Shown here piece after piece: positions 41,134 to 64,000 of a stretch of DNA of 64,000 nt (position 1 is its first letter; each line of letters begins with the position of its first letter). The position numbers and the translations under genes are program-made. The notes beneath the pieces are model-generated. The model had not been told where the DNA came from and ran no database searches. It was given only the letters and a program-made list of their open reading frames with translations. The stretch is from Terriglobia bacterium (lineage in GTDB: Bacteria > Acidobacteriota > Terriglobia > Terriglobales > Acidobacteriaceae), in contig JAIQFO010000002.1 in the NCBI GenBank assembly GCA_020073215.1, positions 1 through 64,000 of the forward strand. The letters are read 5' to 3'.

Positions 41134-42495
41134 ATGGCTAACAAGAAAGTCGTCATCATTGGAGGCGGGCCCACGGGGCTGGGCGCAGCCTATCGTCTGC
41201 ACGAACTCGGTTACGACAATTGGGTGCTCTACGAAAAGTCGGAGGACGTTGGGGGACACTCCACTTCGCACCTGGACCCGCGGGGATTCGTGTGGGATGA
41301 GGGCGGGCACGTTATTTTTTCGCATTATCCCTATTTCGACAAACTGGTCGACGACATGCTCGGCAAGGAAGTGCACGAGCGGGTGCGCGAGAGCTGGGTG
41401 TACCTGCAAGATGTCTCGGTGCCGTATCCATTCCAGAACAACCTGCGGTACCTGCCGAAGCCGCTGCAGGTAAGTTGCCTGATGGGAGCGGCCAAAGCGA
41501 CCGCCAGCCGGAACGGCGAAGCGAAGAACTTCCGGGAGTGGACGCTCAACACCTTCGGCGAGGGCATCGCCGAGACCTTCATGTTCCCTTACAACTCCAA
41601 GGTCTGGACCACGCCGCTGGAGCGGATGTCGAAGGGATGGATTGCGGAACGCGTGTCGGTGGTGGACTTCAAGCGCCTGCTGGAAAATGTGCTCTACGAA
41701 AAAGACGACGTGGCCTGGGGCCCGAACAATAAATTCCGCTTCCCGCTGCACGGAGGAACGGGCGAAATCTACCGCCGCATGGCGCGGCGTTTCCCCGATA
41801 AGGTGCGGACCGGCAAGCAACTGGCCGAGGTCGACGCGGCGCAGCGAAAGGTATCGTTTGCCGACGGCAGCGGCGACAGCTACGACGTGCTGATTTCAAC
41901 CGCGCCGCTCGATTTGTTGGCTGGCATGATCAAGCCAGCCGACTCGAGACTGCGCGAGGCAGCGGTGTTGCTTGAACACAACGATCTGCTGGTGCTGGGA
42001 ATCGGATTGAAGAAGAAGATCGACACCGGTAAATGCTGGGTGTATTTTGCAGACCCCGAAATGCCTTGCTATCGGGCCACGTTTTTCTCCCATTATTCGC
42101 CCTTCAACGTTCCGAATGGCGATACCGAGCAGTACAGTTCGCTGATGTGCGAGATGTCGGTTCCGCTGGGGCAAACGGTGGATATCGAGCGTACGTATGA
42201 ACAGATGCTCGCCGGGTTGATCCGCTCGAAAATACTGGACGAATCGGACCGCGCGCGCATCATTTCGCGTTACCACCGCCTAGTGAGGTATTCCTATCCG
42301 ATTCCGACCATCGATCGCGATCGGGCGCTGGGCATTCTGCAGCCGGCGTTGATGGAGCGCGGGATCTACTCCCGGGGACGCTTTGGCGCTTGGCGCTACG
42401 AGATCGGAAACATGGATCATTCGGTCCTGATGGGCGTGGAAGCGGCCAATCACATCGTGAGTGGAGAAAAGGAACTGGTGTTTTACAGTTCTTAG
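41134..42495 (+). CDS. FAD-dependent oxidoreductase, UDP-galactopyranose mutase-like
   Basis: 453 residues from the ATG at 41134 (MANKKVVIIGGGPTGLG). The FAD-binding GxGxxG is at 9-14, with LYEKSEDVGGHSTSH next and GMDHSVLMGVEAANHIV-like sequence at the C-terminus (GNMDHSVLMG). This is the NAD(P)-binding_8/amine-oxidase fold shared by UGM-type mutases and glycan-associated flavoproteins (protoporphyrinogen-oxidase-like). In surface-sugar loci such enzymes convert a nucleotide sugar. A glycosyltransferase follows 27 nt later. Exact substrate unknown; an oxidase role is possible. Confidence 0.8.
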   Translation: MANKKVVIIGGGPTGLGAAYRLHELGYDNWVLYEKSEDVGGHSTSHLDPRGFVWDEGGHVIFSHYPYFDKLVDDMLGKEVHERVRESWVYLQDVSVPYPFQNNLRYLPKPLQVSCLMGAAKATASRNGEAKNFREWTLNTFGEGIAETFMFPYNSKVWTTPLERMSKGWIAERVSVVDFKRLLENVLYEKDDVAWGPNNKFRFPLHGGTGEIYRRMARRFPDKVRTGKQLAEVDAAQRKVSFADGSGDSYDVLISTAPLDLLAGMIKPADSRLREAAVLLEHNDLLVLGIGLKKKIDTGKCWVYFADPEMPCYRATFFSHYSPFNVPNGDTEQYSSLMCEMSVPLGQTVDIERTYEQMLAGLIRSKILDESDRARIISRYHRLVRYSYPIPTIDRDRALGILQPALMERGIYSRGRFGAWRYEIGNMDHSVLMGVEAANHIVSGEKELVFYSS

Positions 42496-42522
42496 AGGAA
42501 CAACTTTCTTATTCGAACGACT

Positions 42523-43527
42523 ATGGGAAACGAGCAAGCACAAGCGGCGCCACGGGTCAGCATCATCATCCCGTCGTATAACACCGCGAATATGATCGCG
42601 GCGTGTCTGGATTCGATCTTTGCCCAGACCTTCCAGGATTTCGAGGCCATCGTGGTCAACGATGGTTCGCCGGATACGGCGGAACTGGAGCGGGTGCTGC
42701 AGCCTTACCTTGATCGCAACCTCAATGATCGCAATCCGGATCGCATCGTGTATATCAAGCAGGCCAACAAGCGGGCGGCGGGCGCGAGAAACACGGCGAT
42801 CGCCCGAGCGCGGGGCGAGTTTCTCGCGTTCCTCGACAGCGACGATACCTGGTTTCCGAACCATCTGGAATCGCAGATGAAGCAGTTCGAGGCGGATCCT
42901 TCGCTCAGCCTGGTCTACGCCAACGCGGACGCGACCAGCGACCCGGCTCATCCGCTTACATTCATGGAGAAGAACCCCTCGAACGGCGAGGCGACCTTTG
43001 AAGCTTTGGTGATGGAACGTTGTGTGGTATCGATCGCCACCGTGGTTGCGCGCAAGGCGGCAATCATGAAAGCGGGAGGATTTGACGAAAGCCTGGCGCG
43101 TTGCGACGACTACGACATGTGGCTGCGGACCGTGTTTTACGGCGGGAAAATCGGCTACAGCCGCCAGATCCAGGCGCGCATGAACGAGGGCCGCCCCGGA
43201 TCGCTGGGTGCGGCGCGGGCTAAAATGGCGGAGGGGTATTGGTTGATCCTCGAAAAAGCCGATCAGAAACTGCCATTGAGCCCGGCGCAGCGGAAACTGG
43301 TACGGGAGCGGGCCGCCGAGATTCGCGCACGCTACCTGGTGGAAGAAGGTAAGAACCATCTCTCCGCGCGAGATTTTCCCAAGGCTCGGGAACGTTTTTC
43401 GGAAGCGAACCAGTACTTCCGCAGAACGAAATTGAGCCTGGTGCTGTTCGGACTGAAGGTGGCGCCGAATGCGACCAGCCGGCTGTTCACCTTTTGGACC
43501 CGGCGGAATCACGGGGCCCCGGCATGA
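42523..43527 (+). CDS. Family 2 glycosyltransferase
   Basis: 334 residues, cytosolic GT-A fold. VSIIIPSYNTANMI, VVNDGSPDT and the metal-binding FLDSDDTWFPNH are diagnostic. The C-terminal ~120 residues are helical with no membrane segment; there is a TPR-like stretch (EEGKNHLSARDFPKARERF). It transfers a sugar from a nucleotide donor to a lipid-linked glycan. It is 27 nt after the UGM-like flavoprotein and 64 nt before the first sulfotransferase, so all may be on one transcript. Confidence 0.9.
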   Translation: MGNEQAQAAPRVSIIIPSYNTANMIAACLDSIFAQTFQDFEAIVVNDGSPDTAELERVLQPYLDRNLNDRNPDRIVYIKQANKRAAGARNTAIARARGEFLAFLDSDDTWFPNHLESQMKQFEADPSLSLVYANADATSDPAHPLTFMEKNPSNGEATFEALVMERCVVSIATVVARKAAIMKAGGFDESLARCDDYDMWLRTVFYGGKIGYSRQIQARMNEGRPGSLGAARAKMAEGYWLILEKADQKLPLSPAQRKLVRERAAEIRARYLVEEGKNHLSARDFPKARERFSEANQYFRRTKLSLVLFGLKVAPNATSRLFTFWTRRNHGAPA

Positions 43528-43591
43528 GGCGATTCGTTGCGACGTGTGACTCTGGCGGGCCGACCTGGCAGCGGGTAATTGAAGGGTGCGA

Positions 43592-44509
43592 ATGATTCGG
43601 GATCTGGTGGCGGGTGTGAAGCAAGCGTTCGGGCTCGGTCGTCCGGGGCGAAGGGTTCCGGTGCGCCCCGACGACATTTTGCTGGCTTCCTATCCGAAGT
43701 CGGGAAGCACGTGGCTGCGATTGCTCATTGCAAACCTCCGGCATCCCGATCGAGAAGTCGACTACGCAAATCTGCACCAACTGGTCCTCGATCTCGAAGT
43801 GAGCGGGAAGCGCGATTTCGACCGGGCGTCGCGGCCGCGCATCATCAAGACGCACGGCAGTTTCGATCCCCGCTATCGGAGGGTCATCTATGTGGTTCGC
43901 GATCCCCGCGACGTGGCTCTTTCGCACTGCGAGCACCTGCGCCAGGCGCGGAGATCCGACGATGAGCTCGCCATAGAGGACTTTATCGAGCGATTTCTCA
44001 CCGGAAAAAGCGCGGCAAGCCGCGTCTCTACAGCGCACACGGGATCGTGGGGAGAGAACGTCGGCAGTTGGCTGGCTACACGGTCCCGCCATTCGGACTT
44101 TCTCTTAGTGCGCTTTGAAGATCTGCTCGACGGCACGGCGCGCGAATTGACGCGGGTGGCTGATTTCGCGGGATTGCCCACGACTGCCGAGAGAATCTCG
44201 CAGGCGGTCGAGCGCAGCGTTATTGAGCGCAGTTCTGGCGCGAAGATGCGGAAGACGGCGAAGCCCGGCGGCTGGCGCAGCCATTTGCCCGAGGCGCAGG
44301 TAGCGCGCATCGAAGACGCGTGGGGCGGTATCATGGCGTGCCTGGGATATGAGCTCGTGACCCGCGATCCGCGCAGCGCGCTCAAATCCAGCCTGATTGG
44401 GTTGCTGATGAGGGGAGCGGCAGGGAACTCCGAGGAGTGTCGGGAGGTTTTTGCCGGAGATCCTTCCTCCGTGCCCGGTACGCTCCCAAAGCCGGCTGCG
44501 ATTCGATAA
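43592..44509 (+). CDS. PAPS-dependent sulfotransferase 1
   Basis: 305 residues. The PAPS-binding motifs are the 5' loop SYPKSGSTWLR (34-43; K36) and the 3'-phosphate motif VVRDPRDVALS (101-111). H88 (IKTHGSF) is the catalytic base. Residues ~138-149 (GKSAASRVSTA) are encoded by a truncated copy of palindrome family A, in frame, in a loop before TGSWGENV. The C-terminal PFVR block of its two neighbours is lost here (KMRKTAKPGGWRSHLPE). It should sulfate a glycan or other cytosolic acceptor. Reads GT-ST1-ST2-ST3-flippase. Confidence 0.88.
   Translation: MIRDLVAGVKQAFGLGRPGRRVPVRPDDILLASYPKSGSTWLRLLIANLRHPDREVDYANLHQLVLDLEVSGKRDFDRASRPRIIKTHGSFDPRYRRVIYVVRDPRDVALSHCEHLRQARRSDDELAIEDFIERFLTGKSAASRVSTAHTGSWGENVGSWLATRSRHSDFLLVRFEDLLDGTARELTRVADFAGLPTTAERISQAVERSVIERSSGAKMRKTAKPGGWRSHLPEAQVARIEDAWGGIMACLGYELVTRDPRSALKSSLIGLLMRGAAGNSEECREVFAGDPSSVPGTLPKPAAIR
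44012..44031. repeat. Half-copy of palindrome family A inside sulfotransferase 1
   Basis: GCGGCAAGCCGCGTCTCTAC, lacking the GAGAC of the left arm. It lies within the coding sequence without breaking the frame. Confidence 0.7.
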
Positions 44510-44547
44510 TCAAACCGCGATGCTCAAACTTTGATGATCAGACTGCG

Positions 44548-45414
44548 ATGATTGAGCGCCTTATCAATACGACCAAACGAGCGTTGGGATATACCAATCC
44601 GGGACGCGAGTTTGAAGTGTTTGACGACGACACCTTCATCGTGTCGTTCCCAAAGTCCGGAAACACCTGGACGCGATTTCTGATTGCGAACCTGCTGCAT
44701 CCGGAAGAGCCCGCCGACTTCGGCAATATCGACCGGCTGGTTCCGGAATCGGAGGGTCTGACGAGAAACCAGCTGGCACGAGTGCCGCGGCCCCGCATTC
44801 TGAAGAGCCACGACTATTTCGATGCGCGTTTCCGGAAGGTCGTCTACATTGTGCGGGACCCGCGCGACGTGGTTGTTTCGCAGTTCCACTTTTTCAGAAA
44901 ACGGCGGCGACTCGCTGACGACGATTCGATCGAGCAGTTCGTCACGCGCTTTGTGGCGGGGGAAACCTGCGACTACGGCTCTTGGGGGACCAATGTTGCG
45001 AGCTGGCTGGCCACGCGGCAGAACTCTCCCGGGTTCTTGCTGCTGCGCTACGAAGACATGATGGCACGGACGAGTGCGGAATTGAATCGGATTGCTATAT
45101 TTCTGGGAATGAGAGCGACGTCCGAGATGATAGCGCAAGCAGTGGAGCGCAGTTCCGCCGACCAGATGCGGAAGCTGGAAGGCACGAACGCAACCGCATT
45201 GGTGACCAAGAACTCGCGTCCGGATGTTCCCTTCGTCCGCTCGGCCAAGGCCGGAGGCTGGAGAACCGGTCTGCCGGAACCGGCGGTGAAGCAACTGGAA
45301 ACCGCATGGGAACCCCTGATGGTTTATCTAGGATATGAGCCGATGTTTCCCAGCGCAGCGGCGAACTCGGAATTGCGGGTTTCCGCAACCCCATGGAACG
45401 GACCTTCGCGATGA
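44548..45414 (+). CDS. PAPS-dependent sulfotransferase 2
   Basis: 288 residues from the ATG at 44548 (MIERLINTTKRALGY); the longer frame would overlap sulfotransferase 1. Motifs are SFPKSGNTWTRFL (33-45), the base H88 (LKSHDYF), IVRDPRDVVVS (101-111) and the C-terminal PFVRSAKAGGWRTGLPE. The three tandem proteins align without gaps through residue ~110, so they are a recent duplication series. Its stop overlaps the next ATG (ATGA). Cytosolic; acceptor unknown. Confidence 0.9.
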   Translation: MIERLINTTKRALGYTNPGREFEVFDDDTFIVSFPKSGNTWTRFLIANLLHPEEPADFGNIDRLVPESEGLTRNQLARVPRPRILKSHDYFDARFRKVVYIVRDPRDVVVSQFHFFRKRRRLADDDSIEQFVTRFVAGETCDYGSWGTNVASWLATRQNSPGFLLLRYEDMMARTSAELNRIAIFLGMRATSEMIAQAVERSSADQMRKLEGTNATALVTKNSRPDVPFVRSAKAGGWRTGLPEPAVKQLETAWEPLMVYLGYEPMFPSAAANSELRVSATPWNGPSR

Positions 45415-46286
45415 TGTACAGCCTCAAGAAGCTCTGGAAGAACGCGTTAGGGACGGATATTGCCGGGCGCACGCTGGCGGTCCGCGCCGACGACACGTTC
45501 ATCATTTCTTATCCCCGATCGGGCAACACCTGGACCCGCTTCCTGATCGCGAACCTGATGCATCCACACGAGCCGGTAACGTTCGCCAATATCGAGCGGC
45601 TCATACCGGATGCGGAAGCGCAGTCGAGCCGCTACATGCGCCGCACGCCAAGCCCGCGCATGATCAAGAGCCATTCGTATTTCGATCCGCGCTATCCGCG
45701 GGTAATTTACATCGTGCGCGATCCGCGGGATGTGGTGCTTTCTTACTACGATTTTTCGCGCAAGTACCGGCAGATTGAAGACAGTTATCCGCTGCAGCGT
45801 TACATCGAGGATTTCACGACGGGGCATTTGCTTTCGGCGGGCTGGGGCACCTGGGGAGAAAACGTGGCCAGTTGGGTCTACGCGCGCGGCGCGCGCCCGG
45901 GATTCCTGCTGCTGCGATACGAGGACATGAAAGCGCGTCCGGAACAGGAACTGACGCGCATCGCGGAGTTCCTGGGCATTCCAGCATCCCCCGAACTGCT
46001 GCGAACGGCGGTCGAGCGCAGTGCGGCCGACCGCATGCGCGAGATGGAGAAGGCGCAGGGCAAAGACTGGGTTACCACCAAGGACAAGCGCAGCGATATC
46101 CCATTTGTCCGCACGGCATCGGCCGGCGGTTGGAAGACGAATCTGCCGAGCGAAGCGGTGGCGAAGATCGAAGCGCGGTGGGGGAACATCATGGCGCAGT
46201 TGGGGTACGAACTGGTGACGCGTAAGGCGGAGTGGGTAGAGACTCCATCGGCAGATACAGCGGTCCTTGGGGAAAGCCGGAAATGA
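45411..46286 (+). CDS. PAPS-dependent sulfotransferase 3
   Basis: 291 residues from the ATG at 45411, which overlaps the stop of sulfotransferase 2 (ATGA); an ATG at 45393 is possible but would break the alignment with its paralogues. Motifs are SYPRSGNTWTRFL (33-45; Arg replaces the usual Lys), the base H88 (IKSHSYF), IVRDPRDVVLS and PFVRTASAGGWKTNLPSE. The K-to-R change in the PAPS loop is conservative, so it is probably active. It leads directly into the flippase gene. Confidence 0.9.
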   Translation: MMYSLKKLWKNALGTDIAGRTLAVRADDTFIISYPRSGNTWTRFLIANLMHPHEPVTFANIERLIPDAEAQSSRYMRRTPSPRMIKSHSYFDPRYPRVIYIVRDPRDVVLSYYDFSRKYRQIEDSYPLQRYIEDFTTGHLLSAGWGTWGENVASWVYARGARPGFLLLRYEDMKARPEQELTRIAEFLGIPASPELLRTAVERSAADRMREMEKAQGKDWVTTKDKRSDIPFVRTASAGGWKTNLPSEAVAKIEARWGNIMAQLGYELVTRKAEWVETPSADTAVLGESRK

Positions 46287-46305
46287 CGGGAGCGGATCGG
46301 AGCGG

Positions 46306-47877
46306 ATGCGGAAGCACGAAAAAAGACAAATCCTGAAGAACGTTGGCTCCAGTTGGTCGGCGCTTGGCGTGAACGTCGCGGTTGGAATTTTTCTTTCTCC
46401 CTTCATTCTGCACCGACTGGGGGACGCGGCTTTCGGGGTTTGGGTGCTGATCTTCTCGGTGACCGGTTACTACGGTTTGTTCGATCTCGGCATTCGCTCC
46501 TCCATCATTCGATACATCTCCAAGTACACCGCCACGGACGACCGCGAGAAGCTCACCTCGTTCGTCAACACGGCTTTGTTCAGCTACACCAGCGTTGGCC
46601 TGGTAAGCATGATATTGACCGTGCTGCTGAGTTCCTCGGTGGAGCGCGTATTCAAGATTCCGCCCGAAATGCATTCGCAGGCGCGCCTGTTGCTGTTAAT
46701 GGTCGGCACCTCGGTCAGCCTGGGATTTCCGATGGGCGTGTTTGGAGGCATGCTCGAAGGTTTGAGCCGATTCTATATTCTGAACTGGACCAGCATCGGC
46801 TCCTCGCTTGCTCGCGCCGCTTTGATCGTCTATTTTCTGAATCGTGGATACGGTCTGCTCACCGTCGCCCTGATCACGGTTGCGCTGCCGGTGCTTTCTT
46901 CGATTGTTCGCGGCATGATCGTCCTCCGCTTGTGCCCGGTGGCGCTTGGTCTGAAGTATGTGGACCGCGCCTCATTCCGCGACATGGCCAATTACGGCAG
47001 CACCACCTTCCTGGTGCTGGTGGCGGCGCGCCTGCGCTTCCGCACCGACGCCCTGGTGCTCGGCACCATGATGTCGACCGTCGCCGTGACCTACTTCAAC
47101 ATCGGCTCCCGCATCGTGGACTACGCCCAGGAATCGGTCTCGAGCTTAGCCCAGATCTTTGTGCCCATGGTGAGCCAGTCGGAGGCCACCGGCAATCTTG
47201 ACCGGGTGCGCAAGATCTATATCGCCGGCAATCGCGCGTGCGCGTTCCTGATTTTTCCCCTCGCCGCTACCCTGATCATCCTGGGCAAGCACATCATCCG
47301 GGTTTGGGTGGGCGCGCGTTATATACCTCACAGCTACCCGGTGCTGGTGGTGCTGATCGTTCCTTACACGCTCATGCTGTCGCAAGCGGCTTCGGGGCGC
47401 GTTTTGTTCGGCGTCAGCAAACATCAGACGTTGGCGACGATCACGGTGATCGAGGGCGTGGCCAACCTTATTCTCAGCATCGCGCTCGTCCGTCCGCTGG
47501 GAATTATCGGCAGCGCGCTCGGAACCGCCATCCCGCTCTCGTTCACCTTTCTTGTGTTTATGCCGCGCCAATTGAAGAAGCGGATCGGCGTTCCCGTCGG
47601 GGTCTTCGTGCGCCAGGCCTACACGCTGCCCATTCTTCTGACTCTCCCGCTGGTCGCAGTGCTGTGGCTGGCCAACCGATTCATTTATCCCCGCAACCTG
47701 TTCCAGTTGGCGCTCGAAATCGTCGCGGCCGGCTCCTTCTACGCAATCGGTCCGCTGTGGGCCTACCGTACGAACCGCGCATTTCACGTTGCCGCGATCG
47801 CGGGCTTAACACCTGCTCCTCCTCCCGAACAGCCGCCGCAGGCAGTGGTCGCGGTGGAATATCAGGGCGAGCAGTGA
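46306..47877 (+). CDS. Wzx-type polysaccharide flippase (MATE/MVF superfamily)
   Basis: 523 residues from the ATG at 46306. There are 12-14 hydrophobic helices, starting after ILKNVGSSWSALGVNVAVGIFLSP. The helix 1-2 pattern FILHRLGDAAFGVWVL and SIIRYISKY is typical of Wzx/RfbX-like exporters (PF13440/PF01943). It would flip the lipid-linked, possibly sulfated, repeat unit to the periplasm. No Wzy polymerase or Wzz chain-length regulator is seen in this window. It lies downstream of the three sulfotransferases, so sulfation may precede export. Confidence 0.88.
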   Translation: MRKHEKRQILKNVGSSWSALGVNVAVGIFLSPFILHRLGDAAFGVWVLIFSVTGYYGLFDLGIRSSIIRYISKYTATDDREKLTSFVNTALFSYTSVGLVSMILTVLLSSSVERVFKIPPEMHSQARLLLLMVGTSVSLGFPMGVFGGMLEGLSRFYILNWTSIGSSLARAALIVYFLNRGYGLLTVALITVALPVLSSIVRGMIVLRLCPVALGLKYVDRASFRDMANYGSTTFLVLVAARLRFRTDALVLGTMMSTVAVTYFNIGSRIVDYAQESVSSLAQIFVPMVSQSEATGNLDRVRKIYIAGNRACAFLIFPLAATLIILGKHIIRVWVGARYIPHSYPVLVVLIVPYTLMLSQAASGRVLFGVSKHQTLATITVIEGVANLILSIALVRPLGIIGSALGTAIPLSFTFLVFMPRQLKKRIGVPVGVFVRQAYTLPILLTLPLVAVLWLANRFIYPRNLFQLALEIVAAGSFYAIGPLWAYRTNRAFHVAAIAGLTPAPPPEQPPQAVVAVEYQGEQ

Positions 47878-47888
47878 GCCGGGACGGA

Positions 47889-49598: not shown

Positions 49599-49818
49599 TT
49601 TGGCGGGCGCAGGGCATCGTCGTCCGACGGCATAAATGCAGTTTCACTCCTACCTTTTGAGGGTAAGGCTGCAAGCTGTTTCACACCCGTGCAGCGCTCC
49701 TGGGTGTTTTAGAATAGGATGGTGCTGGGCCATTGTTTAGAATAGTTTACGAGTTGACTGTCGGAGGCTTTCGGAAGGTGGATTGCTCATTCCCTATGTT
49801 CCATATGATTTTGGTAGG

Positions 49819-49920: not shown

Positions 49921-49998
49921 ACTTGGATAAATCGGACCCCTCTTGTGATTCTAATTTCAACATAAATTTTGCTTAGAGACCCTGGGAGGAATATTGCA

Positions 49999-53675: not shown

Positions 53676-53683
53676 TCGTTAAG

Positions 53684-54766: not shown

Positions 54767-57436
54767 ATGTTTGATAGCGACGTTGCACTCTTAAACCGTC
54801 ATTCGGCATCCGCACGAACGCTAGCGCAGCGCCTGAGCGTTTTGATACTCCTGTTGGCAGCGGCGCTGCTGACCACCTCCTGCGGTTTACTGACACAACC
54901 AGTGGACGCGGCGAGCACGAACCATTTAGCGCTGCCGGCAACGATTCCGGCAGGTACGGTCAATGAGTCTTACAACGCTGTGCTGACGGTCGGAGGCGGA
55001 AGGGCTCCCTACCATTTCTCGGTGGCTACCGGTGTCCTGCCCCCGGGTATCAGTTTGAACCCCACGACAGGGAGGCTCTCGGGCACGCCCACAACGACCG
55101 GCACATATTCGTTCGAGGTGATGGTAATCGACTCTTCGCTCCGAAATGACAAGGGGAGCCAAACGTTCCACGTTGGCATCGGGAAAGGCTCCGGCAGAAA
55201 TATCAAGATTGGTCTGTCGCCGGCGAGCGTAACGCTGACCTCGAATCAGAAGCATCAGTTCACGGCCACTGTCAGCGGAACTTCCAACACTGGAGTGACG
55301 TGGTCCGCGGCGACAGGCTCGATTGATGTCAACGGCCTCTACACGGCTCCGACAGTCAGCACTCAGACCAACGTGATGGTCACTGCGACCAGCAATGCGG
55401 ACTCCTCGAAGTCCGCCACTTCCACCATCACGGTCAACCCGGCGAGCACCCAGGCGCTGGCCATCACGACCACGAACCTGCCCCAAGGGCAGCAGGGAGA
55501 CCTGTATAACGAAGTGTTCACGGCAACAGGCGGAACCACGCCTTACAGTTGGACAATTTCCGCCGGCACTCCTCCGGCCGGAGTCGCGATGAATGCGAGC
55601 GGCGATCTTGCGGGCACGCCAGCCGCTGCCGGAACTTTCAACTTCACGGTCACGGTTACTGATGCGACCAGCCAGACGGCAAGCGGGAATTTCAGCACGA
55701 CCATCCTTGCCGACAGCAATTTCGATGGTCCGGCGGAACTGCCGCGCGTAACCGTAGCCACTGCGATGAGCGACACACCCGCGCCGGGATCGGTGATCAC
55801 CGTGAACGCGGGCGGCAATCTGCAAACCGCCTTGAACAACGCACGCTGCGGCGACGTGATCGAACTGCAGGCGGGGGCAACCTTTTCGGGCAAGTTCATC
55901 GTGCCGGCCAAGAGTTGCGACAGCAGCCATTGGATCATTGTCCGAACCAGCGCTCCCGACAGCGCTCTGCCCGCCGAAGGGCAGCGCGCGACGCCTTGCT
56001 ACGCCGGGGTCGCTTCGCTCCCGGGCCGCCCGCAATATAGCTGCGCCAATCCCAGCAAGGTGATGGCGAAAGTGCAGATGACTCCAACCGTGGGCGACGG
56101 CCCATTCCAGTTTGCCAGCGGCGCCAATTATTACCGCTTCATTGGACTGGAAATCACTCGGCCCGCCGGAAGCCCGGGTTCCCCGCGGCTGATCTCGATC
56201 TCGGGCAGCGGCGGCACCGCCGATCACATCGTGGTGGACCGCTCGTGGCTGCATGGAAATCCCCAGGATGAAGTTCGCAATGGCGTGGGTCTGAATGGCA
56301 TGACCTACGCGGCGGTCGTAGACTCCTACTTCAACGATTTCCATTGCATCTCAGGGACGGGGACTTGCACTGACGCTCATGCGATTGGCGGGGGTCTCGG
56401 CGACACTCAGGATGGTCCCTTCAAGATTCAGAACAATTTCCTCGAGGCTTCGGGCGAATCCATCTTGTTTGGCGGGGGAAAAGCGATCTCGAGCCCGACT
56501 GACATCCAAATCTTGAACAATCACTTCTGGAAGCCGTGGCAGTGGATGCCGGGCAATCCGAATTTCATCGGCGGACCGGACGGCCATCCCTTCATCGTCA
56601 AGAATCATTTTGAACTGAAGAACGCGGTTCGGGTTCTAGTCGACGGGAACCTCATGGAAAACACATGGGGTGGCTTCAGCCAGAGCGGGTACGGCATTCT
56701 GCTCACGCCCAGAAACCAATACTCCGTTCGGACGGGTACTTTCCTTTGTCCGGCGTGTCAGGTGACCGACGTTACGATCCGCTACGTCCGCATCTCGCAT
56801 GGCGGGGGCGGGATCCAGATGGCAACCCTGGACGACACCCCAACCGGACCGGGACAACCGGCGCTGGCTGGCACTCGCTGGAGCATTCATGACGTGGTGA
56901 TCGACGACCTCAGCAAACAATACGTGGGCGGCGGCATTGTGTTCGAGATCATGAACGGGTGGCCGACGAACCCGCTGAACACGGTCACCATCAATCACGT
57001 CACCGGTTTCCCGGATCCCAGCAGCCACATGATCATCACGGGAAACTCGACCACGAAAGCACCCATGTATGGACTGGTCTTCACCAACAACCTGGTGGTC
57101 ACCGGCCGATACCCGGTTTGGGACGCGCTAGGCGGCACTGACAGTTGCGCCAAATCCGACGTGCCCGTCACCGTGGTTAACACCTGTTTCGCCACCCGGA
57201 CATTCAGCAACAACGCTCTGGTGGGGAATCCGGCGGCATTTCCCCCGTCAACCTGGCCGTTGAACAATCTGTTTCCGGCAACCATCGGTGACGCCGGATT
57301 CGTCAACTTCAACAACGGCAATGGGGGAAACTACGAGCTTCAGTCGGGCAGTCCTTACAAGAACAAGGGCACGGACGGCAAAGATCTTGGGGCCGACATT
57401 GTTGGGCTCAACGCAGCACTGGCCAACGTCGAATAG
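54767..57436 (+). CDS. Secreted Ig-like and beta-helix protein 1
   Basis: 889 residues. It has a lipoprotein-type signal (LLTTSCGLL, C39). Three Ig-like domains follow: He_PIG-type (~50-135, ~232-315; LPPGISLNPTTGRLSGTP) and a BIG2-like one between (~140-230). A right-handed parallel beta-helix occupies ~340-885: repeated NNF/NNH turns, with WGGFSQSGYGILL. Such proteins are often polysaccharide lyases or glycan-binding surface proteins. No catalytic site is assigned. The paralogue at 57675 shares the helix part. It ends in a strong terminator. Confidence 0.7.
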   Translation: MFDSDVALLNRHSASARTLAQRLSVLILLLAAALLTTSCGLLTQPVDAASTNHLALPATIPAGTVNESYNAVLTVGGGRAPYHFSVATGVLPPGISLNPTTGRLSGTPTTTGTYSFEVMVIDSSLRNDKGSQTFHVGIGKGSGRNIKIGLSPASVTLTSNQKHQFTATVSGTSNTGVTWSAATGSIDVNGLYTAPTVSTQTNVMVTATSNADSSKSATSTITVNPASTQALAITTTNLPQGQQGDLYNEVFTATGGTTPYSWTISAGTPPAGVAMNASGDLAGTPAAAGTFNFTVTVTDATSQTASGNFSTTILADSNFDGPAELPRVTVATAMSDTPAPGSVITVNAGGNLQTALNNARCGDVIELQAGATFSGKFIVPAKSCDSSHWIIVRTSAPDSALPAEGQRATPCYAGVASLPGRPQYSCANPSKVMAKVQMTPTVGDGPFQFASGANYYRFIGLEITRPAGSPGSPRLISISGSGGTADHIVVDRSWLHGNPQDEVRNGVGLNGMTYAAVVDSYFNDFHCISGTGTCTDAHAIGGGLGDTQDGPFKIQNNFLEASGESILFGGGKAISSPTDIQILNNHFWKPWQWMPGNPNFIGGPDGHPFIVKNHFELKNAVRVLVDGNLMENTWGGFSQSGYGILLTPRNQYSVRTGTFLCPACQVTDVTIRYVRISHGGGGIQMATLDDTPTGPGQPALAGTRWSIHDVVIDDLSKQYVGGGIVFEIMNGWPTNPLNTVTINHVTGFPDPSSHMIITGNSTTKAPMYGLVFTNNLVVTGRYPVWDALGGTDSCAKSDVPVTVVNTCFATRTFSNNALVGNPAAFPPSTWPLNNLFPATIGDAGFVNFNNGNGGNYELQSGSPYKNKGTDGKDLGADIVGLNAALANVE

Positions 57437-57674: not shown

Positions 57675-59528
57675 ATGACTCGATTCCCATTGCAATGCTC
57701 TCGCCCCGCTCCCGTGGTAAAGAGTTCCGGTCAGAAATTCTCTTATGTTCTTGGCTTGGTTTTCTTTTTTTTCGCCTGGTCCGCACTGCCGGCGCGAGCG
57801 ACTACGCCTCCGACCGGCGAAAATGGCTATTGCGCTAAGGGCAATGTTGCGCAGTTTGGCGCCAAGGATGGCGTCGCCGAACTCCCCAGGACCTGTTACT
57901 ACACGGCAGTTGACGGCACACCGTCGCCGGGGAAATCGATTCGGGTTGGCGCCGGAGCCGACCTGGCTGGCGCCTTCGACCACGCCAAGTGCGGTGACAC
58001 GCTGCTTCTGCCCGCCGGAGCCTCTTTCGACGTCAAAGTGCTGCCCTCGAAACGATGCGACGACCAGCACTACATCACCGTGCGCACCGACACGCCCGAC
58101 TCCAAACTCCCGCCTGAAGGAACACGCATCTCTCCTGCCTGGGCCGGAGTCGCCAGCCTTCCCGGCCGGCCGCCCTTTGCGCAGCCTTCCGGAGGACCGG
58201 CCAAGTTGCTTGCGACTATCCAGGTGCGGCGTCCGGAAGGCGTTGTCGTGGGAGATCACATCCGCTTCATTGGAATTGAATGGACTACGCCTCCCCGCGG
58301 CAACATTTATCGCATGGTGACCGTCGAGCACTCCGACCATGTCATCTTCGATCGCAACTGGGTCCACCCCGCCGAGGGCGATGAAGTAGCCCACGGCATT
58401 GGCGTCAACCTTGGTGCGCACACGGTTGCGGTCATCAACTCCTACATTAACGGCCTGAATTGCATCGCCATTGCCGGAAGGTGCACCGATGCAACCGCCC
58501 TTGGCGGCGGCCGGGGCGACGAACCGGTCCATACCCTCAAGTTCTACAACAACTTTCTGGAGGCGGCTGGAGAGGACATTCTGTTCGGCGGCGGGCCCTC
58601 CACCGTGAATCCAACCGACATCGAGATCCGGCGCAATCATTTGTTTCGGCCGATGCTTTGGAAGGAGGGGGAACCGGGCTATGTTCCGACCGCTTCCGGG
58701 CACCCCTATATCGTGAAGAACAACTTTGAGCTCAAGAGCGCGGTCCGTGTTTTGTTCGAGGCCAACCTACTCGAGAACAGTTGGGGCGGCTTCAGCCAGA
58801 CCGGATATTCCATCCTGCTGACGGCGGTCAATCAGGCCGACAAGTGCCCGTTGTGCCGCGTCAACGACGTCACTATCCGTTTCAACCGGATTCGAAATGT
58901 TGCCGGAGTCGTGCAGATTGCCAACGCCCGGGCCAAGACGGGCGGCGTAGCCGCTGACGGCGGGCGCTACAGCATTCACGACCTGTTCGCCGACCATCTG
59001 CACGACAAGGATTTCAAAGGCGGCGGCGCCTTCATGATTCTGGTCTCGGTGTTGCCGGTGCATGACGTCCAGGTTGATCACGTAACCGCGTTTGTCACGG
59101 GTGTCCTGCTCGCCGTTGATAACTCCGGAGCCAAGCTGGCCAACCTCACGGTGACCAATAGCGTGTTTTCCGTCGGAGATCGGCGGCCGCCGGTGGCCAC
59201 GGCCGGGGCGGCCGGCAGTTGCGCAACCAAGACGCAGGCGCAAGGAGCGGAAGCCGTACTGCAAGCGTGCTTTGACCCCTATAAATTCGAGAACAACTTG
59301 ATCATCAGCGGCCGCGGCTCTTTCCCCAAGGGAAACATCATCGTCGGGTCCGCCGAGGCGGCCGGCATTCGCAACCTCAAAGGCACGATCAGCGAAGATC
59401 CCAGGCTTTGCCACGCCAAGGGACCAGGCTGCCCCAAGGCTTCTCCCGGAGCACGCGCTGCTTCCGATGGCCGCGATCTGGGGGCGGACATCGACGCGGT
59501 CGAGGCTGCCGTTGCCGGGGTGGAGTAG
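57675..59528 (+). CDS. Secreted beta-helix protein 2
   Basis: 617 residues with a signal peptide (~25-43, LGLVFFFFAWSALPARA). The mature part corresponds to the beta-helix of protein 1 without the Ig-like front: GASFDVKVLPSKRCDDQHY, WGGFSQTGYSILL and ending DLGADIDAVEAAVAGVE like its neighbour's DLGADIVGLNAALANVE. Two cysteine-rich spots (CPLCRVND) are shared. It is probably a pectate-lyase-fold protein acting on or attached to the surface glycan. Its own promoter is likely, because of the terminator upstream. AAAGGAAA precedes the ATG. Confidence 0.7.
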   Translation: MTRFPLQCSRPAPVVKSSGQKFSYVLGLVFFFFAWSALPARATTPPTGENGYCAKGNVAQFGAKDGVAELPRTCYYTAVDGTPSPGKSIRVGAGADLAGAFDHAKCGDTLLLPAGASFDVKVLPSKRCDDQHYITVRTDTPDSKLPPEGTRISPAWAGVASLPGRPPFAQPSGGPAKLLATIQVRRPEGVVVGDHIRFIGIEWTTPPRGNIYRMVTVEHSDHVIFDRNWVHPAEGDEVAHGIGVNLGAHTVAVINSYINGLNCIAIAGRCTDATALGGGRGDEPVHTLKFYNNFLEAAGEDILFGGGPSTVNPTDIEIRRNHLFRPMLWKEGEPGYVPTASGHPYIVKNNFELKSAVRVLFEANLLENSWGGFSQTGYSILLTAVNQADKCPLCRVNDVTIRFNRIRNVAGVVQIANARAKTGGVAADGGRYSIHDLFADHLHDKDFKGGGAFMILVSVLPVHDVQVDHVTAFVTGVLLAVDNSGAKLANLTVTNSVFSVGDRRPPVATAGAAGSCATKTQAQGAEAVLQACFDPYKFENNLIISGRGSFPKGNIIVGSAEAAGIRNLKGTISEDPRLCHAKGPGCPKASPGARAASDGRDLGADIDAVEAAVAGVE

Positions 59529-59650: not shown

Positions 59651-60694
59651 GTGGCCACAGCAAGCTCAAGCGACCGCAACCTGGCTCCTGTCTTCGTGAT
59701 GGGCTGCCACCGCTCCGGAACGAACCTGCTTTACGACATGCTATTATCCTCCGGCGGGTTTGCCATCTATCGCGGTTATCTGCCGATCTACAAGATTCTG
59801 ATTCCCCGCTTTGGCTCGATGAGCAGCCGTTCGCACCGGGAAAAGATCCTAGGGACGTTTCTCCGGAGCAAGGGTTTCCGGCGTACCGGGCTCGACGCCG
59901 AACCGCTGTCGACGCGCATTCTGAACGAATGCCGCAACGGGGGAGATTTTATTCGCGTCGTCATGGATTCGGTGGCCAGGAGCCAGGGTGCGCCGCGCTG
60001 GGCCGTGTACGATCCGGACAATGTGGTGCGCGTGGCGCGGGTAAAGCGTGATCTGCCCAACGCGCTCTTTGTCCACATTATTCGCGACGGACGCGACATT
60101 GCGCTCTCGCTCAAGAAAATGGGCGGCTTCGCTCCCTTGCCCTGGGACCGGAACCGGACCGAAAGCCTGGTCGCTACCGCGCTCTATTGGCAGTGGATGG
60201 TTCGCAAAGGCCGCGCTGGTGGCCGCAAGTTCCCCGCCGACTACATCGAGGTCCGCTACGAAGACCTGATCACCAATCCGCGGGAAGTGCTGGGAAAGCT
60301 TGGCGGATTTATCGATCACGATCTGGACTACGATCGGATTCAGCGCGCCAGCCTAGGCCGCCTTTCGGAAACGAACTCTTCGTTTCGCGAAGAGGGCAGA
60401 GGAGAAACACTCAACCCGCTCGGCCGCTGGAAAGAGCGCCTGGCGCACGCCGATGTCGCTGCCATCGAAGCGACCGTGGGCGACTGCCTGCGGGAAAATG
60501 GCTACGAACTGTCGCTGCCCGACGCCGAGCGACGCCTCCGCTTGCGGCATCTGTGGATGCGCGGAGTGTACCGCACGCTTCTCGACAGCAAGATGTGGCT
60601 GAGGCTAAATACGCCGGTCGGCCGCCTTGCCAACATGTCTGCGCTCGAACTGGAAGAAGAACCGGCGCGGCTGGCGGAGTCGCTCCGCTCCTGA
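59651..60694 (+). CDS. Sulfotransferase family protein 4
   Basis: 347 residues from the GTG at 59651. The 5' loop FVMGCHRSGTNLLYDML and the 3'-phosphate motif IIRDGRDIALSLKKM are those of the Sulfotransfer_3/PF13469 group, more distant from the three tandem copies. VRYEDLITNPREVLGKLGGFI is conserved. The C-terminal ~80 residues are helical. It may sulfate a different position or acceptor than the tandem set. A TAAGAT 7 nt upstream and no ribosome binding site suggest a leaderless message. It is the first gene of a tight run: ST4-VOC-FkbH-ACP. Confidence 0.85.
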   Translation: MATASSSDRNLAPVFVMGCHRSGTNLLYDMLLSSGGFAIYRGYLPIYKILIPRFGSMSSRSHREKILGTFLRSKGFRRTGLDAEPLSTRILNECRNGGDFIRVVMDSVARSQGAPRWAVYDPDNVVRVARVKRDLPNALFVHIIRDGRDIALSLKKMGGFAPLPWDRNRTESLVATALYWQWMVRKGRAGGRKFPADYIEVRYEDLITNPREVLGKLGGFIDHDLDYDRIQRASLGRLSETNSSFREEGRGETLNPLGRWKERLAHADVAAIEATVGDCLRENGYELSLPDAERRLRLRHLWMRGVYRTLLDSKMWLRLNTPVGRLANMSALELEEEPARLAESLRS

Positions 60695-60731: not shown

Positions 60732-61163
60732 ATGAACGCGATTTCCATAACCTGGCAGCCTCAAGGCGCGTTTCACCACGTGGGCTTCGTCGTGGCTTCG
60801 ATTCAGAGTTCTGTGCAGGGCTTTGCCGACCTGCTGCAGGCGGATTGGGACGAGCAGGTGTTTCACGATCCCAACCAGGGCGTTCGCGTCACGTTTTTGA
60901 AGAGCCGTCGCGCCGGTGACCCGCTCTGGGAACTGGTGGAACCCGCCGGCGAACAGTCGCCCGTGCAGTCGTTCGCCGCCAAGGGCGGAGGCCTGCACCA
61001 CGTTTGTTACGTCGTGGATGATTTGGAGAAGGCCCTGGCCGAGGCGCGGTTGTTGAAAGCGATTGTCACCCGGCAACCGATGCCAGCCGTCGCATTCGGC
61101 GGACGGCGTATCGCCTGGATCTATACGAGAAACCGTCTGTTGATCGAGTATCTGGAACGCTGA
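60732..61163 (+). CDS. VOC-family (glyoxalase/epimerase-like) protein
   Basis: 143 residues from the ATG at 60732. One VOC module of two beta-alpha-beta halves, FHHVGFVVASIQSS at the front and LHHVCYVVDDLEKALAEA in the middle, looks like methylmalonyl-CoA epimerase. Metal-binding positions H16 and H90 are plausible. In FkbH/ACP cassettes such proteins may act on the acyl-ACP. Activity is unknown. It lies between sulfotransferase 4 and FkbH with 1-40 nt gaps. Confidence 0.78.
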   Translation: MNAISITWQPQGAFHHVGFVVASIQSSVQGFADLLQADWDEQVFHDPNQGVRVTFLKSRRAGDPLWELVEPAGEQSPVQSFAAKGGGLHHVCYVVDDLEKALAEARLLKAIVTRQPMPAVAFGGRRIAWIYTRNRLLIEYLER

Positions 61164-61179
61164 CTTGATTTTTAACTCG

Positions 61180-63132
61180 ATGTCCAATCCGATGTCTAAT
61201 TCGGCTTCTCATTCGACCCCCGCCGAGCGCGATCGATCAAACTTGCGAGCAGAAATCGATGCGCTAATCGCCCAAGGCGGTTTGGATCGTGCCGGGCACA
61301 GCCTGGCCGAACTTTGGAGGCGCGATCCCGGGTCGAGTACGGCGAGCTTTGTGACCTCGCGACTCGACCAGTTACGCGACCCGACGCGCGGCAACCTTGG
61401 TCTCACAAAGTTTAAACTGGCTATTCTGCGCTCCTTCACGGTCGAGCCCATTGTGCCTCTGTTGCGGGCGGAGGCATTCGCATACGGCATCGATCTCGAG
61501 GTCCATGTCGGCGATTTCAATACCTACGCGCAGGATATGCTTGACGGTCAGAGTTCGCTCTACCGCTTCGCACCGAACGCGGTCGTGCTCGCGGTGCGCG
61601 CGGATCAGGCGGCGCCGGAGTTGTGGCGCGACTTCGCCGAACTGGTACCAGAAGCGGCGCAACACGCTGTTGAGCGCGTGGTTCGCGGTTATGAACAGTG
61701 GATCGGAGCGTTTCGAAAACACAGCCAGGCGGCCCTGATTGTTCATACCCTGGAGCGCCCGACACATCCAAGTCTTGGAGTTCTTGACCATCAGTCCGAG
61801 GCCGGGCAGTCCGGACTGATCCGGCAAGTCAATCGCGAGTTGCGGCGCTTGGCTGTGGAATTTCACGGAGTGTACACGCTCGATTATGATGCGCTGGTGG
61901 CGCGCCACGGCAGCGAACATTGGCACGACGAGCGCAAGTGGCTGACGGCGCGGCTTCCCATCGCCGCCGGTTATCTTCTCCCAATGGCGCGCGAGTGGAT
62001 GCGTTTCATCGTGCCGCTCAGCGGACGCACGGCCAAGGTTCTGGTCGTCGACCTCGACAACACGCTGTGGGGCGGCGTGATCGGCGAAGACGGTATGGCC
62101 GGGATCAAAATCAGCGGCGAATATCCGGGCGCGGCCTATCAGGCCCTGCAACGCACCCTGCTCGATCTGACGCGCAAGGGAATTCTGCTCGCCGTCTGCA
62201 GCAAAAACAATCTCGACGATGCCATGGAGGCGCTGGAGAAACATCCCGGAATGCTGGTACGCAAAAAGCATTTTGCGGCGATGCGAATTAACTGGACCGA
62301 CAAGGCGCAGAATCTCCGCGAAATCGCACAGGAACTGAATGTCGGCGTCGATGCGCTCGCCTTCCTCGACGATAATCGTTTCGAGCGTGAGCAAGTTCGC
62401 GCTGCGCTTCCCGAAGTTACGGTCATTGATCTTCCGCAGAATCCGCTTGAGTATGCGGCTGCCGTCAGAAATTGTGCGACCTTCGAGCGCCTCACCCTTT
62501 CGGCCGAAGACCAGCAGCGCACTGAAATGTATGCGGCACAGAAGCAACGGGCCGGCGCCGAACAGAACTTCCAATCGAAAGAAGATTTCTTTGGTTTTCT
62601 CGAGCAGGAAGCCGAACTCGAGCCCGTGTCGGAGCTGACGCTGGCGCGAGTCGCGCAACTGACACAGAAAACCAATCAGTTCAACCTGACCACCCGGCGT
62701 TACACCGAGCCGCAGATCGCAGACATGGCAAAACAGCCCGAGTGGCACGTATATTCGATTCGGGTGCGGGATCGTTTCGGTGATCACGGGCTGGTCGGGG
62801 TCGCAATCACGCACGACGAAGGCGAGCAGTGCGAAGTGGATACCTTTCTACTGAGTTGCCGCGTCATCGGAAGAACGATCGAAACGGCGCTTCTTGCGCA
62901 TCTCGCCGAAAGCGCCGCCCAGCGGGGCTGCAAGCGCCTGGTGGGCTGGTTCCTGCCGACGAAGAAGAACGCTCCGGCGCGCGATTTCTACCAGCAGCAC
63001 GGCTTCACGCGGCAGCAAACCAACGGCACCGGTTCACTGTGGACGCTCAGCCTGAACCGTTCCACGCTGCGCTGCCCCGATTGGATTAAGGTAAACAGGA
63101 CCGTGGACGCTATCTCCGGAGGAAAGAATTGA
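61180..63132 (+). CDS. FkbH-like HAD (IIIC) acyl-activating protein
   Basis: 650 residues (a TTG at 61165 and an ATG at 61192 are other possible starts). An N-terminal SGNH-like region (~70-275) is followed by a HAD-IIIC domain with LVVDLDNTLWGGVIGEDG (~290) and FLDDNRFE. A C-terminal GNAT-like domain (~500-640) ends the protein. FkbH-type proteins load glyceryl from 1,3-bisphosphoglycerate onto an ACP, giving glyceryl-ACP for polyketides or glycan decoration. An ACP gene overlaps its stop. The substrate could come from the gap/pgk step. Confidence 0.88.
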   Translation: MSNPMSNSASHSTPAERDRSNLRAEIDALIAQGGLDRAGHSLAELWRRDPGSSTASFVTSRLDQLRDPTRGNLGLTKFKLAILRSFTVEPIVPLLRAEAFAYGIDLEVHVGDFNTYAQDMLDGQSSLYRFAPNAVVLAVRADQAAPELWRDFAELVPEAAQHAVERVVRGYEQWIGAFRKHSQAALIVHTLERPTHPSLGVLDHQSEAGQSGLIRQVNRELRRLAVEFHGVYTLDYDALVARHGSEHWHDERKWLTARLPIAAGYLLPMAREWMRFIVPLSGRTAKVLVVDLDNTLWGGVIGEDGMAGIKISGEYPGAAYQALQRTLLDLTRKGILLAVCSKNNLDDAMEALEKHPGMLVRKKHFAAMRINWTDKAQNLREIAQELNVGVDALAFLDDNRFEREQVRAALPEVTVIDLPQNPLEYAAAVRNCATFERLTLSAEDQQRTEMYAAQKQRAGAEQNFQSKEDFFGFLEQEAELEPVSELTLARVAQLTQKTNQFNLTTRRYTEPQIADMAKQPEWHVYSIRVRDRFGDHGLVGVAITHDEGEQCEVDTFLLSCRVIGRTIETALLAHLAESAAQRGCKRLVGWFLPTKKNAPARDFYQQHGFTRQQTNGTGSLWTLSLNRSTLRCPDWIKVNRTVDAISGGKN

Positions 63133-63377
63133 CAGCCAGCACGTTTGAGCGGGTGCGCAACATCGCCAGCGATATTTTCGGCGTTCGAGCCGATAGCATC
63201 ACGGCGGAGTCTTCGCCGGAAACGATCGAGACTTGGGATTCCATGCAGCATCTGAACCTGGTTCTCGCCATCGAAGAAACGTTCGGAGTACAGCTCGAGC
63301 CTGAAGACATCGAGCAGATGAAGAACATCGGCGCGGTTGCGGCGCTGGTCGAGAAGCTGCAATCGGCGGCGCGCTGA
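63129..63377 (+). CDS. Acyl carrier protein
   Basis: 82 residues. The 4'-phosphopantetheine site is S38 in ETWDSMQHLNLV, in a typical four-helix ACP (PF00550). The TTG start overlaps the FkbH stop by 4 nt (TTGA), so the two are coupled. It probably carries the glyceryl or other short acyl group handled by FkbH. Confidence 0.9.
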   Translation: MTASTFERVRNIASDIFGVRADSITAESSPETIETWDSMQHLNLVLAIEETFGVQLEPEDIEQMKNIGAVAALVEKLQSAAR

Positions 63378-63404
63378 TGCATTGAAATTGTCATTCTGAT
63401 TCAA

Positions 63405-63483
63405 TTGTCATTCTGAGCGAAGCAAAGGACCTGCTGCTTGCCGACGCAGAAAAGCAGGTCCTTCGCTTCGCTCAGGATGACAA
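63405..63483. repeat. Repeat family D, inverted pair
   Basis: TTGTCATTCTGAGCGAAGC, then AAAGGACCTGCT, a short loop and the inverted copy AGCAGGTCCTTCGCTTCGCT ending CAGGATGACAA. The arms pair over ~30 nt with few mismatches. It separates the ACP from the next gene. Confidence 0.8.
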
Positions 63484-63511
63484 AGTTCGGGGAAGTTTCC
63501 ACCCTTCATAC

Positions 63512-64000
63512 ATGGCCATCGTCATTCAGCCCTATCGTGCCGAGCACGAGCCCGCGGTTGCGGAGTTCAATGAGCGCCTCCGGCAAGGGGGCGAAGACGA
63601 GAACATGGTGTTCTACCGCTGGTCCGAGCCGCGCTGGCTGCCGCGTCTGGCGGATTCGCGAAGCTACAACGAATTTTTCGTCGCCGTCGATGACCGAATC
63701 GTGCGCGGCGGCTACGCGCTCAAAACCCAGGAATTCTTTTTCCCCGACGGCCAGATTCGCACCATCGGTTACTATCACCATCCCCTCTCGGAGGGCATCG
63801 TCAACAAGGCTCACGCCATCGTGGGCACGCTGCTGCTGCGCGACGCGATGCAGCGCGCCCCGCTCCTCTACTGTCTCGGCATGGGCGGATACGAAAATCC
63901 GTTGCCGCAGATGCTGGTTCGTCTGGGATGGACGCATTGCCTGGTGCCGTTCTTCTTTCGGGTCGTAAATCCTTCGCGCTTTCTCAGAAACATGCAGACG
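63512..64000 (+). CDS. Acyltransferase-like protein (partial, GNAT fold)
   Basis: 163 codons from the ATG at 63512 to the window end with no stop; the gene runs on. It reads MAIVIQPYRAEHEPAVAEFN and later GGYALKTQEFFF, GYYHHPLSEG and LGMGGYENPLPQMLVRLGW. This looks like the GNAT-like acyltransferases found in exopolysaccharide and FkbH/ACP loci. It could pass the acyl group from the ACP to a sugar. Family identification is moderate because the end is missing. Confidence 0.6.
   Translation, partial: MAIVIQPYRAEHEPAVAEFNERLRQGGEDENMVFYRWSEPRWLPRLADSRSYNEFFVAVDDRIVRGGYALKTQEFFFPDGQIRTIGYYHHPLSEGIVNKAHAIVGTLLLRDAMQRAPLLYCLGMGGYENPLPQMLVRLGWTHCLVPFFFRVVNPSRFLRNMQT

Follow-up and report, generated by a model that had tools for sequence, protein, structure and literature searches.

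A probable sulfation locus for a surface glycan, with its own 3′-phosphoadenylyl sulfate supply, in an acidobacterial draft genome

The locus described here is a run of genes on one strand of a contig from a soil acidobacterium that encodes sulfotransferases, proteins expected to make their sulfuryl donor, 3′-phosphoadenylyl sulfate (PAPS), and glycan-modifying enzymes. The window, meaning the whole 64,000-nucleotide stretch of DNA analysed, comprises bases 1–64000 of contig C4 (198,920 bases) in a draft genome of 5.6 Mb and 111 contigs (98% complete; contamination estimate 5.65%). Within it the locus spans 41134–63377, all on the + strand, and continues past the window to C4:72915. An earlier interpretation made from the letters and open reading frames (ORFs), hereafter the sequence-only reading, had listed its gene families, and gene calls with Pfam and NCBIfam profile scans, the basis of the family assignments below, found all of them on that strand. 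Active-site motif patterns of the families were looked for in the proteins. The features are:

41134–42495, +, UDP-galactopyranose mutase (UGM)-like flavoprotein (Pfam Amino_oxidase 67.1 bits; PDB 4dsg, a UGM, 381.7 bits)
42523–43527, +, family 2 glycosyltransferase (GT2; PF00535 106 bits)
43592–44509 (ORF opens 43586), +, PAPS sulfotransferase 1 (PF00685 107 bits; YPKSGSTW and VRDPRDVALS present)
44548–45414, +, PAPS sulfotransferase 2 (PF00685 135 bits; motifs present; top PDB sequence match SULT1A1, 91.6 bits)
45411–46286, +, PAPS sulfotransferase 3 (PF00685 133 bits; motifs present)
46267–47877, +, Wzx-like flippase (PF01943 64.9 bits; MurJ 30.5 bits)
47889–49598, +, formyltransferase–NodB deacetylase fusion (PF00551 47 bits, PF01522 52 bits; NIH, DVGA, TFDDG and HTRNH present)
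49999–51741 (ORF opens 49969, start uncertain), +, bifunctional ATP sulfurylase–adenylyl sulfate (APS) kinase, Sat-CysC (PRK05537 919 bits, cut-off 669)
51859–52629, +, TauE/SafE (TSUP) anion transporter (PF01925 153 bits)
52748–53569, +, IMPase-family phosphatase, a candidate CysQ, that is, 3′-phosphoadenosine 5′-phosphate (PAP) phosphatase (PF00459 163 bits)
53684–54490, +, NodB-type polysaccharide deacetylase (PF01522 84 bits)
54767–57436, +, secreted lipoprotein-like protein, Ig-like repeats followed by a region resembling the next protein (He_PIG 76.7 bits)
57675–59528, +, secreted right-handed β-helix protein (predicted model pLDDT 73.5, pTM 0.80)
59651–60694, +, sulfotransferase 4 (Sulfotransfer_3; PF13469 85 bits)
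60732–61163 (ORF opens 60627), +, VOC/glyoxalase-fold protein (PF13669 64 bits)
61165–63132, +, FkbH-family protein, HAD-IIIC plus GNAT (TIGR01686 312.8 bits, cut-off 146.65; DLDNTLW present)
63129–63377, +, acyl carrier protein (ACP; PF00550 33 bits; DSM serine present)
63512–C4:64642 (window part to 64000), +, tandem-GNAT acyltransferase candidate, 376 amino acids (no Pfam match)
C4:64662–65528, −, sulfotransferase 5, just outside the window

The genes stand in the order listed, from the UGM-like gene and GT2 through three Sulfotransfer_1 genes, the flippase, the fusion and the Sat-CysC, TauE/SafE and IMPase-family genes to NodB, after which follow, still on the + strand, the two secreted proteins, Sulfotransfer_3, VOC, FkbH and ACP. 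The first seven overlap or lie at most 58 bases apart, and every gene of the locus is an open frame. Promoter and terminator scans over 40700–54800 gave a signal close to that of shuffled sequences. The motifs sought were found in both halves of Sat-CysC, the five sulfotransferases, the formyltransferase, both NodB domains, the CysQ candidate, FkbH (where one of two patterns tried matched) and the ACP. Beyond the window lie the rest of the tandem-GNAT candidate, the fifth sulfotransferase and genes for a GNAT protein, a UDP-sugar dehydrogenase, a heparinase-II/III-like protein and an AsnB-like amidotransferase.

Four sulfotransferases in the window and one just beyond it all exceed the Pfam cut-off, and both PAPS-binding motifs are kept in all five. 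In a search of the genome for PF00685 and PF13469, the five clear members all fall at C4:43.6–65.5 kb. The sole other Sulfotransfer_1 match, on contig C21 (G000:C21; L006:1504-2067), is weak (E 9.8e-4), has one stop inside the matched stretch and has no NCBIfam match. Separately, an arylsulfotransferase (ASST; PF05935, 151.5 bits), presumably of the PAPS-independent type judging by its family, is encoded at 29843–31393 on the + strand, ~10 kb upstream of the locus.

The genes for PAPS supply lie in the same run. Sat-CysC matches solved structures (1i2d, 679 bits; 2gks, a bifunctional SAT/APS kinase, 592 bits); its Sat half carries QTRNPMHRAH and GRDHAG and its APS kinase half GLSGSGKS, DGDLVR and FSKEHRDINIRR, motifs that we take to mark the two active sites. 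It is the one APS kinase found in the genome. There are two ATP sulfurylases, Sat-CysC and a PRK04149-type enzyme at C4:136 kb, the latter adjoining QmoC-like and HdrA-like genes (G000:C4:120001-140000; L021:16252-19987). The TauE/SafE protein probably supplies sulfate or exports sulfite. Two Inositol_P proteins were found in the genome; because the one outside the locus scores best as inositol monophosphatase, the locus protein is likelier to be CysQ. The sequence-only reading had PAPS made, used and its by-product PAP removed within one locus: the making and the use are supported by Sat-CysC and the sulfotransferases, and the removal falls to a candidate enzyme.

That reading had also suggested searching genomes for the same gene order, and the order largely recurs in relatives, which makes it more than a chance arrangement. 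Seventeen loci were fetched from relatives, 11 from the genus and 6 from other genera. In every one Sat-CysC stands together with TauE and the CysQ candidate; sulfotransferases are within reach in 14, a biased figure because the 20 stretches used were picked partly for nearby sulfotransferases. Across the 11 genus loci Sat-CysC is 87–92% identical and the order runs UGM, GT2, sulfotransferases, Wzx, Sat-CysC, TauE, CysQ, NodB and two secreted proteins, with gaps and inversions; these loci also repeat the series FkbH, ACP, GNAT, sulfotransferase 5, GNAT and dehydrogenase. At least 24 of the 43 genomes having both APS kinase and Sulfotransfer_1 carry the two on one contig, no more than 23 kb apart; for the genus the figure is at least 14 of 19. 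By their titles, the ten named relatives nearest to Sat-CysC (79–84% identity, best segment) are acidobacteria without exception, and three belong to Candidatus Sulfotelmatobacter. When loci were found by Sat-CysC alone (best 80 of 592), the ten at ≥79% identity had TauE beside it in nine cases and the CysQ candidate in ten, against none and four (CysQ candidate at ≥56%) of the remaining 70. Scans of 51 of the 92 ORFs flanking named Sat-CysC loci gave no sulfotransferase family among the first 25 of 58 families, nor was one found in the 10 of these ORFs scanned singly. One Sulfatase-family (PF00884) protein occurs among these 51 ORFs (L054, L055, L057, L058, L060, L061, L087, L114). The G033 locus (L180) and the named locus L056 agree in gene content and probably represent a single record.

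Co-occurrence was assessed in 120 genomes: 72 of the family (24 of the genus and 48 of other genera, one genome each) and 48 at order or class level; the p-values ignore descent. APS kinase was counted in the 65 genomes with strong matches out of 71 of 120 in the total tally, leaving out six with weak matches alone (G025, G040, G057, G127, G129, G149); all 48 genomes with Sulfotransfer_1 were kept, weak ones included; and 77 of 83 CysH genomes were kept after CysD-length matches (~680 bases) and three weak ones were dropped. Within the family, 38 genomes have both APS kinase and Sulfotransfer_1, four have each alone and 26 have neither (p 1.9e-11). In the 48 other genera the corresponding figures are 19 with both, four with APS kinase alone, none with Sulfotransfer_1 alone and 25 with neither (p 7.7e-10), and putting the six weak genomes back gives p 7.1e-9 for the family and p 7.4e-8 for the other genera. 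The association of APS kinase with CysH in those 48 genera is weak (18 both, 5 APS kinase alone, 11 CysH alone, 14 neither; p 0.02); in the 72 family genomes, CysH occurs without a strong APS kinase match in 15 and APS kinase without CysH in 11.

The genome's one CysH over cut-off is encoded on another contig, C6. It has the cysteine pattern CC..CxxC, which we take to be that of APS reductases, with two cysteine pairs for a 4Fe–4S cluster; the CC and CxxC cysteines are also present in all 18 CysH-like proteins of 30 relatives' loci (L134-L163). APS reductases need no PAPS, so assimilation in this organism should not need it either. The protein scores 193.5 bits against a cut-off of 254.2 for the PAPS model TIGR02057. 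Together with CysH, the stretch C6:8433-11717 (L018) encodes a CysG-type uroporphyrinogen-III methyltransferase and a reductase of the NirA family. This reductase falls under the nitrite and sulfite equivalog cut-offs and is a probable assimilatory sulfite reductase of unusual type. The NIR_SIR match on C4 itself is dsrAB at C4:153.8–156.1 kb, ~100 kb from the locus. There dsrA and dsrB score above cut-off (583 and 520 bits, respectively), and a DsrM gene lies close by (G000:C4:145001-165000; L019:8755-11099 on), which points to dissimilatory sulfur metabolism on the locus's own contig. The earlier statement that no sulfite-reducing genes are seen thus holds for the locus and fails for the genome. 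C4 up to 72.9 kb contains no cysH, cysJI or sulfite reductase gene linked to the PAPS genes, and the sulfotransferase motifs next to them are intact. PAPS therefore looks dedicated to sulfation: the lone APS kinase sits with all five clear sulfotransferases, the CysH has APS-reductase cysteines, and APS kinase co-occurs with Sulfotransfer_1 within the family.

We consider it likely that the locus sulfates a surface glycan from its own PAPS supply; the substrates, the polymer and the sulfate itself are what we infer from the genes. In the mechanism that we propose, Sat-CysC would convert sulfate to APS and APS to PAPS, with TauE/SafE probably bringing in sulfate or removing sulfite. In the cytoplasm, up to five sulfotransferases would use PAPS to place sulfuryl groups on a lipid-linked oligosaccharide, and the IMPase-family protein would probably clear the PAP. 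The UGM-like protein would provide UDP-galactofuranose (UDP-Galf) and GT2 would add a sugar. The fusion protein probably exchanges N-acetyl for N-formyl on an amino sugar, and FkbH, the ACP and the tandem-GNAT candidate probably attach a small acyl group. The Wzx-like flippase would export the unit, and secreted β-helix and heparinase-like enzymes would trim the glycan.

Pfam gives no UGM family for the flavoprotein, and the possibility that UGM is a misnaming was rejected on the PDB search, which upholds the earlier 'UGM-like' label: its best solved structures are UDP-galactopyranose mutases (4dsg, E 5.7e-113, residues 48–490), with which it has a common RFGAWRYE.GN.DHS region, and a role in supplying UDP-Galf is likely. 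These closest entries are, we assume, of the eukaryotic type. A Nod factor pathway was also rejected, GT2 scoring far under the cut-off of the NodC chitooligosaccharide synthase model (37.9 bits vs 550). A polymer is the less secure part of the interpretation and is suggested by one GT2, the Wzx-like flippase and the neighbouring glycan enzymes. The sequence-only reading had proposed a sulfated, possibly formylated and acylated polysaccharide; a sulfation locus with its own PAPS supply stands, and polymer, formyl and acyl groups are kept here as suppositions.

The formyl/NodB fusion is indeed present, with both domains on one chain. Its ORF as listed opens at 47238, overlapping wzx in another frame, but translation likely begins with the ATG at 47889, 11 bases past wzx. 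Six of 199 other genomes carry a full-length relative at ≥58% identity, and one of these has an internal stop. N-formylation of the glycan may follow from this architecture. The two secreted proteins had both been described as β-helix proteins. This agrees with the predicted model of the second, for which Foldseek returns lacto-N-biosidase 7v6i on top (E 2.2e-7, TM 0.40), together with PL6 lyases and chondroitinase B, at modest TM-scores of ~0.3–0.4 for the lacto-N-biosidases and PL6 lyases. The first has Ig-like repeats, and its C-terminal likeness to the second was read by eye from sequence; its homologues from relatives are 35–40% identical to the second. In the acyl set the VOC, FkbH and ACP genes stand as described, and the GNAT named with them is a domain of the FkbH protein, belonging to the FkbH family model (TIGR01686 covers residues 289–617). 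The probable role of FkbH is to charge the ACP with a small hydroxyacyl or glyceryl unit. A separate tandem-GNAT is assigned with low confidence to the 376-amino-acid protein, whose model (pLDDT 49.3) gives weak matches to NMT, FemX and GNAT folds and for which a PDB sequence search gave no meaningful match; it comes after the ACP in three relatives' loci. Acyl decoration may be the outcome.

Two further gene groups were seen. A heparinase-II/III-like protein adjoins the AsnB-like amidotransferase (L007:8515-12915), which comes close to TIGR03108 (591.5 bits against a cut-off of 816.9); that family takes its name from XrtA/PEP-CTERM systems. Consecutive Fe–S, NAD-binding, Oxidored_q6 and NiFe large-subunit genes (L008:10564-15123) resemble a NiFe-hydrogenase set.

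A bolder proposal, which we regard as tentative and on balance doubtful, is that soil acidobacteria make a glycosaminoglycan-like sulfated polymer for which PAPS is exclusively reserved. It would contain a uronic acid (from the UDP-sugar dehydrogenase), a de-N-acetylated and N-formylated amino sugar and Galf, would be sulfated at up to five positions and tailored by the heparinase-like and β-helix proteins, and the formyltransferase–NodB fusion would be a one-chain N-acetyl-to-N-formyl exchange enzyme.

Several observations weigh against a glycan sulfation locus with a dedicated PAPS supply. Outside the family the link between APS kinase and Sulfotransfer_1 fades (5 both, 18 APS kinase alone, 1 Sulfotransfer_1 alone and 24 neither of 48; p 0.09), and it does not reach significance inside the genus (19/0/4/1 in the same order, p 0.21). 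Four genomes of the same genus (G003, G008, G019, G023), two of them 99–100% complete, have Sulfotransfer_1 with no APS kinase found; the negative in G003 comes from scoring 28 of 60 first-look candidates. Profile searches showed a sulfotransferase in the available DNA of only 2 of the 10 named loci with the closest Sat-CysC, which means that conservation of the cassette reaches further than that of the sulfotransferases beside it. CysQ is the best model for the IMPase-family protein, yet the score is under cut-off (133.7 vs 228.8 bits), and the PDB neighbours are mostly SuhB and IMPases. No PF02397 priming transferase was found on C4; three lie elsewhere in the genome (C81, C41, C5). Lastly, CysH falls just under the cut-off of the APS model TIGR02055 (230.8 of 235.3) and is over that of the broad PRK02090 (274.1 bits against 154), a model that bears the name phosphoadenylyl-sulfate reductase. 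APS made by the Sat half could also go to CysH.

The single GT2 and the lack of a PF02397 priming transferase on this contig speak for another explanation, working sulfotransferases whose acceptor is not a polysaccharide: a glycolipid, a lipo-oligosaccharide or another small secreted molecule, as with Nod factors and mycobacterial lipids. The combination of NodB, sulfotransferase, PAPS supply and acyl-transfer genes recalls nod sets, and FkbH with an ACP is listed from natural-product pathways in the literature. We nevertheless judge such an acceptor unlikely, since GT2 is not NodC and the Wzx-like flippase, UDP-sugar dehydrogenase, heparinase-II-like and β-helix proteins suggest a longer glycan.

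It is distinctly improbable that Sat-CysC, TauE and the CysQ candidate are ordinary sulfate assimilation genes merely lying beside a glycan cluster. Sat, APS kinase and CysQ do belong to the classic gene set for assimilation, and both the possible flow of APS from Sat to the C6 CysH and the PAPS-based name of the general CysH model would suit this explanation. Set against it are the APS-reductase cysteines of CysH, the family genomes in which CysH and APS kinase occur apart, and the largely conserved order with glycan genes. An assimilation operon was likewise rejected, CysH and the NirA-family reductase being on C6 and the C4 NIR_SIR match being the distant dsrAB. That the cluster is decayed or silent with non-working sulfotransferases is hardly credible, given open frames, intact active-site motifs and the 87–92% identity of Sat-CysC in the genus, even though the genome is a draft with the contamination estimate given above.

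A sulfation locus for a surface glycan thus remains our preferred interpretation, and since its APS kinase looks dedicated to sulfation, one gene could serve as both marker and knockout target for the trait. Glycan sulfation is known from only some bacteria, and a conserved acidobacterial locus would extend it to another phylum; a speculative role for sulfated, anionic polymers there would be the binding of metals and water. Among the matches listed in the open-licence PMC literature, none dealt with acidobacterial production of a sulfated polysaccharide or with a formyltransferase–NodB fusion, which is not proof of absence. For peat acidobacteria, dissimilatory sulfur genes have been described in a text that does not mention 'sulfotransferase' (PMC6018796).

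Sulfotransferases with a PAPS supply that is dedicated to them or encoded in their locus are already known from rhizobia, Xanthomonas, Cobetia and Vibrio. We take the rhizobial NodPQ to be of the CysDN/C kind, unlike the one-chain Sat-CysC, and no NodC is seen here. The rhizobial nodPQ/nodH genes link PAPS supply with sulfated Nod factors and sulfated surface polysaccharides, alongside a CysH preferring APS (PMC6192434), and in Xanthomonas an ATP sulfurylase and APS kinase, raxP/raxQ, serve the sulfotransferase raxST, as proposed here, although the proposed substrate of raxST is a secreted peptide and not a glycan (PMC4216712). A sulfated glycan has been shown for the Cobetia and Vibrio clusters and for nodPQ in M. 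loti (PMC11766843, PMC11641403, PMC6192434). The Synechan (xss) cluster of the cyanobacterium Synechocystis resembles the present locus in that a Wzx/Wzy-type cluster for a sulfated exopolysaccharide includes two sulfotransferases, and differs in having eight glycosyltransferases and a Wzy polymerase and in that PAPS is unmentioned in the text (PMC8205485). The same source calls sulfated extracellular polysaccharides unique to cyanobacteria among bacteria (PMC8205485), a view contradicted by the rhizobial and recent marine cases (PMC6192434, PMC11641403).

A close parallel is the sulfated capsule cluster of Cobetia marina KMM 1449, whose polysaccharide structure has been determined and in which PAPS-forming genes, CysQ (here a candidate), a sulfotransferase and a glycosyltransferase also lie together (PMC11766843). 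That marine cluster has cysN/cysC and cysD instead of a one-chain Sat-CysC, a sulfate permease instead of TauE, and ABC export, and as described in the accessible text it does not include the UGM, formyl–NodB and FkbH set (PMC11766843). Vibrio sp. KMM 8419 likewise has PAPS genes inside a sulfated capsule cluster with ABC export, but its cysN, cysD and cysC are second copies, whereas the APS kinase here is the sole one found (PMC11641403). Compared with these systems, what appears new in the acidobacterial locus is the phylum, the cassette of one-chain Sat-CysC, TauE and CysQ candidate, the formyltransferase–NodB fusion and an APS kinase apparently reserved for sulfation.

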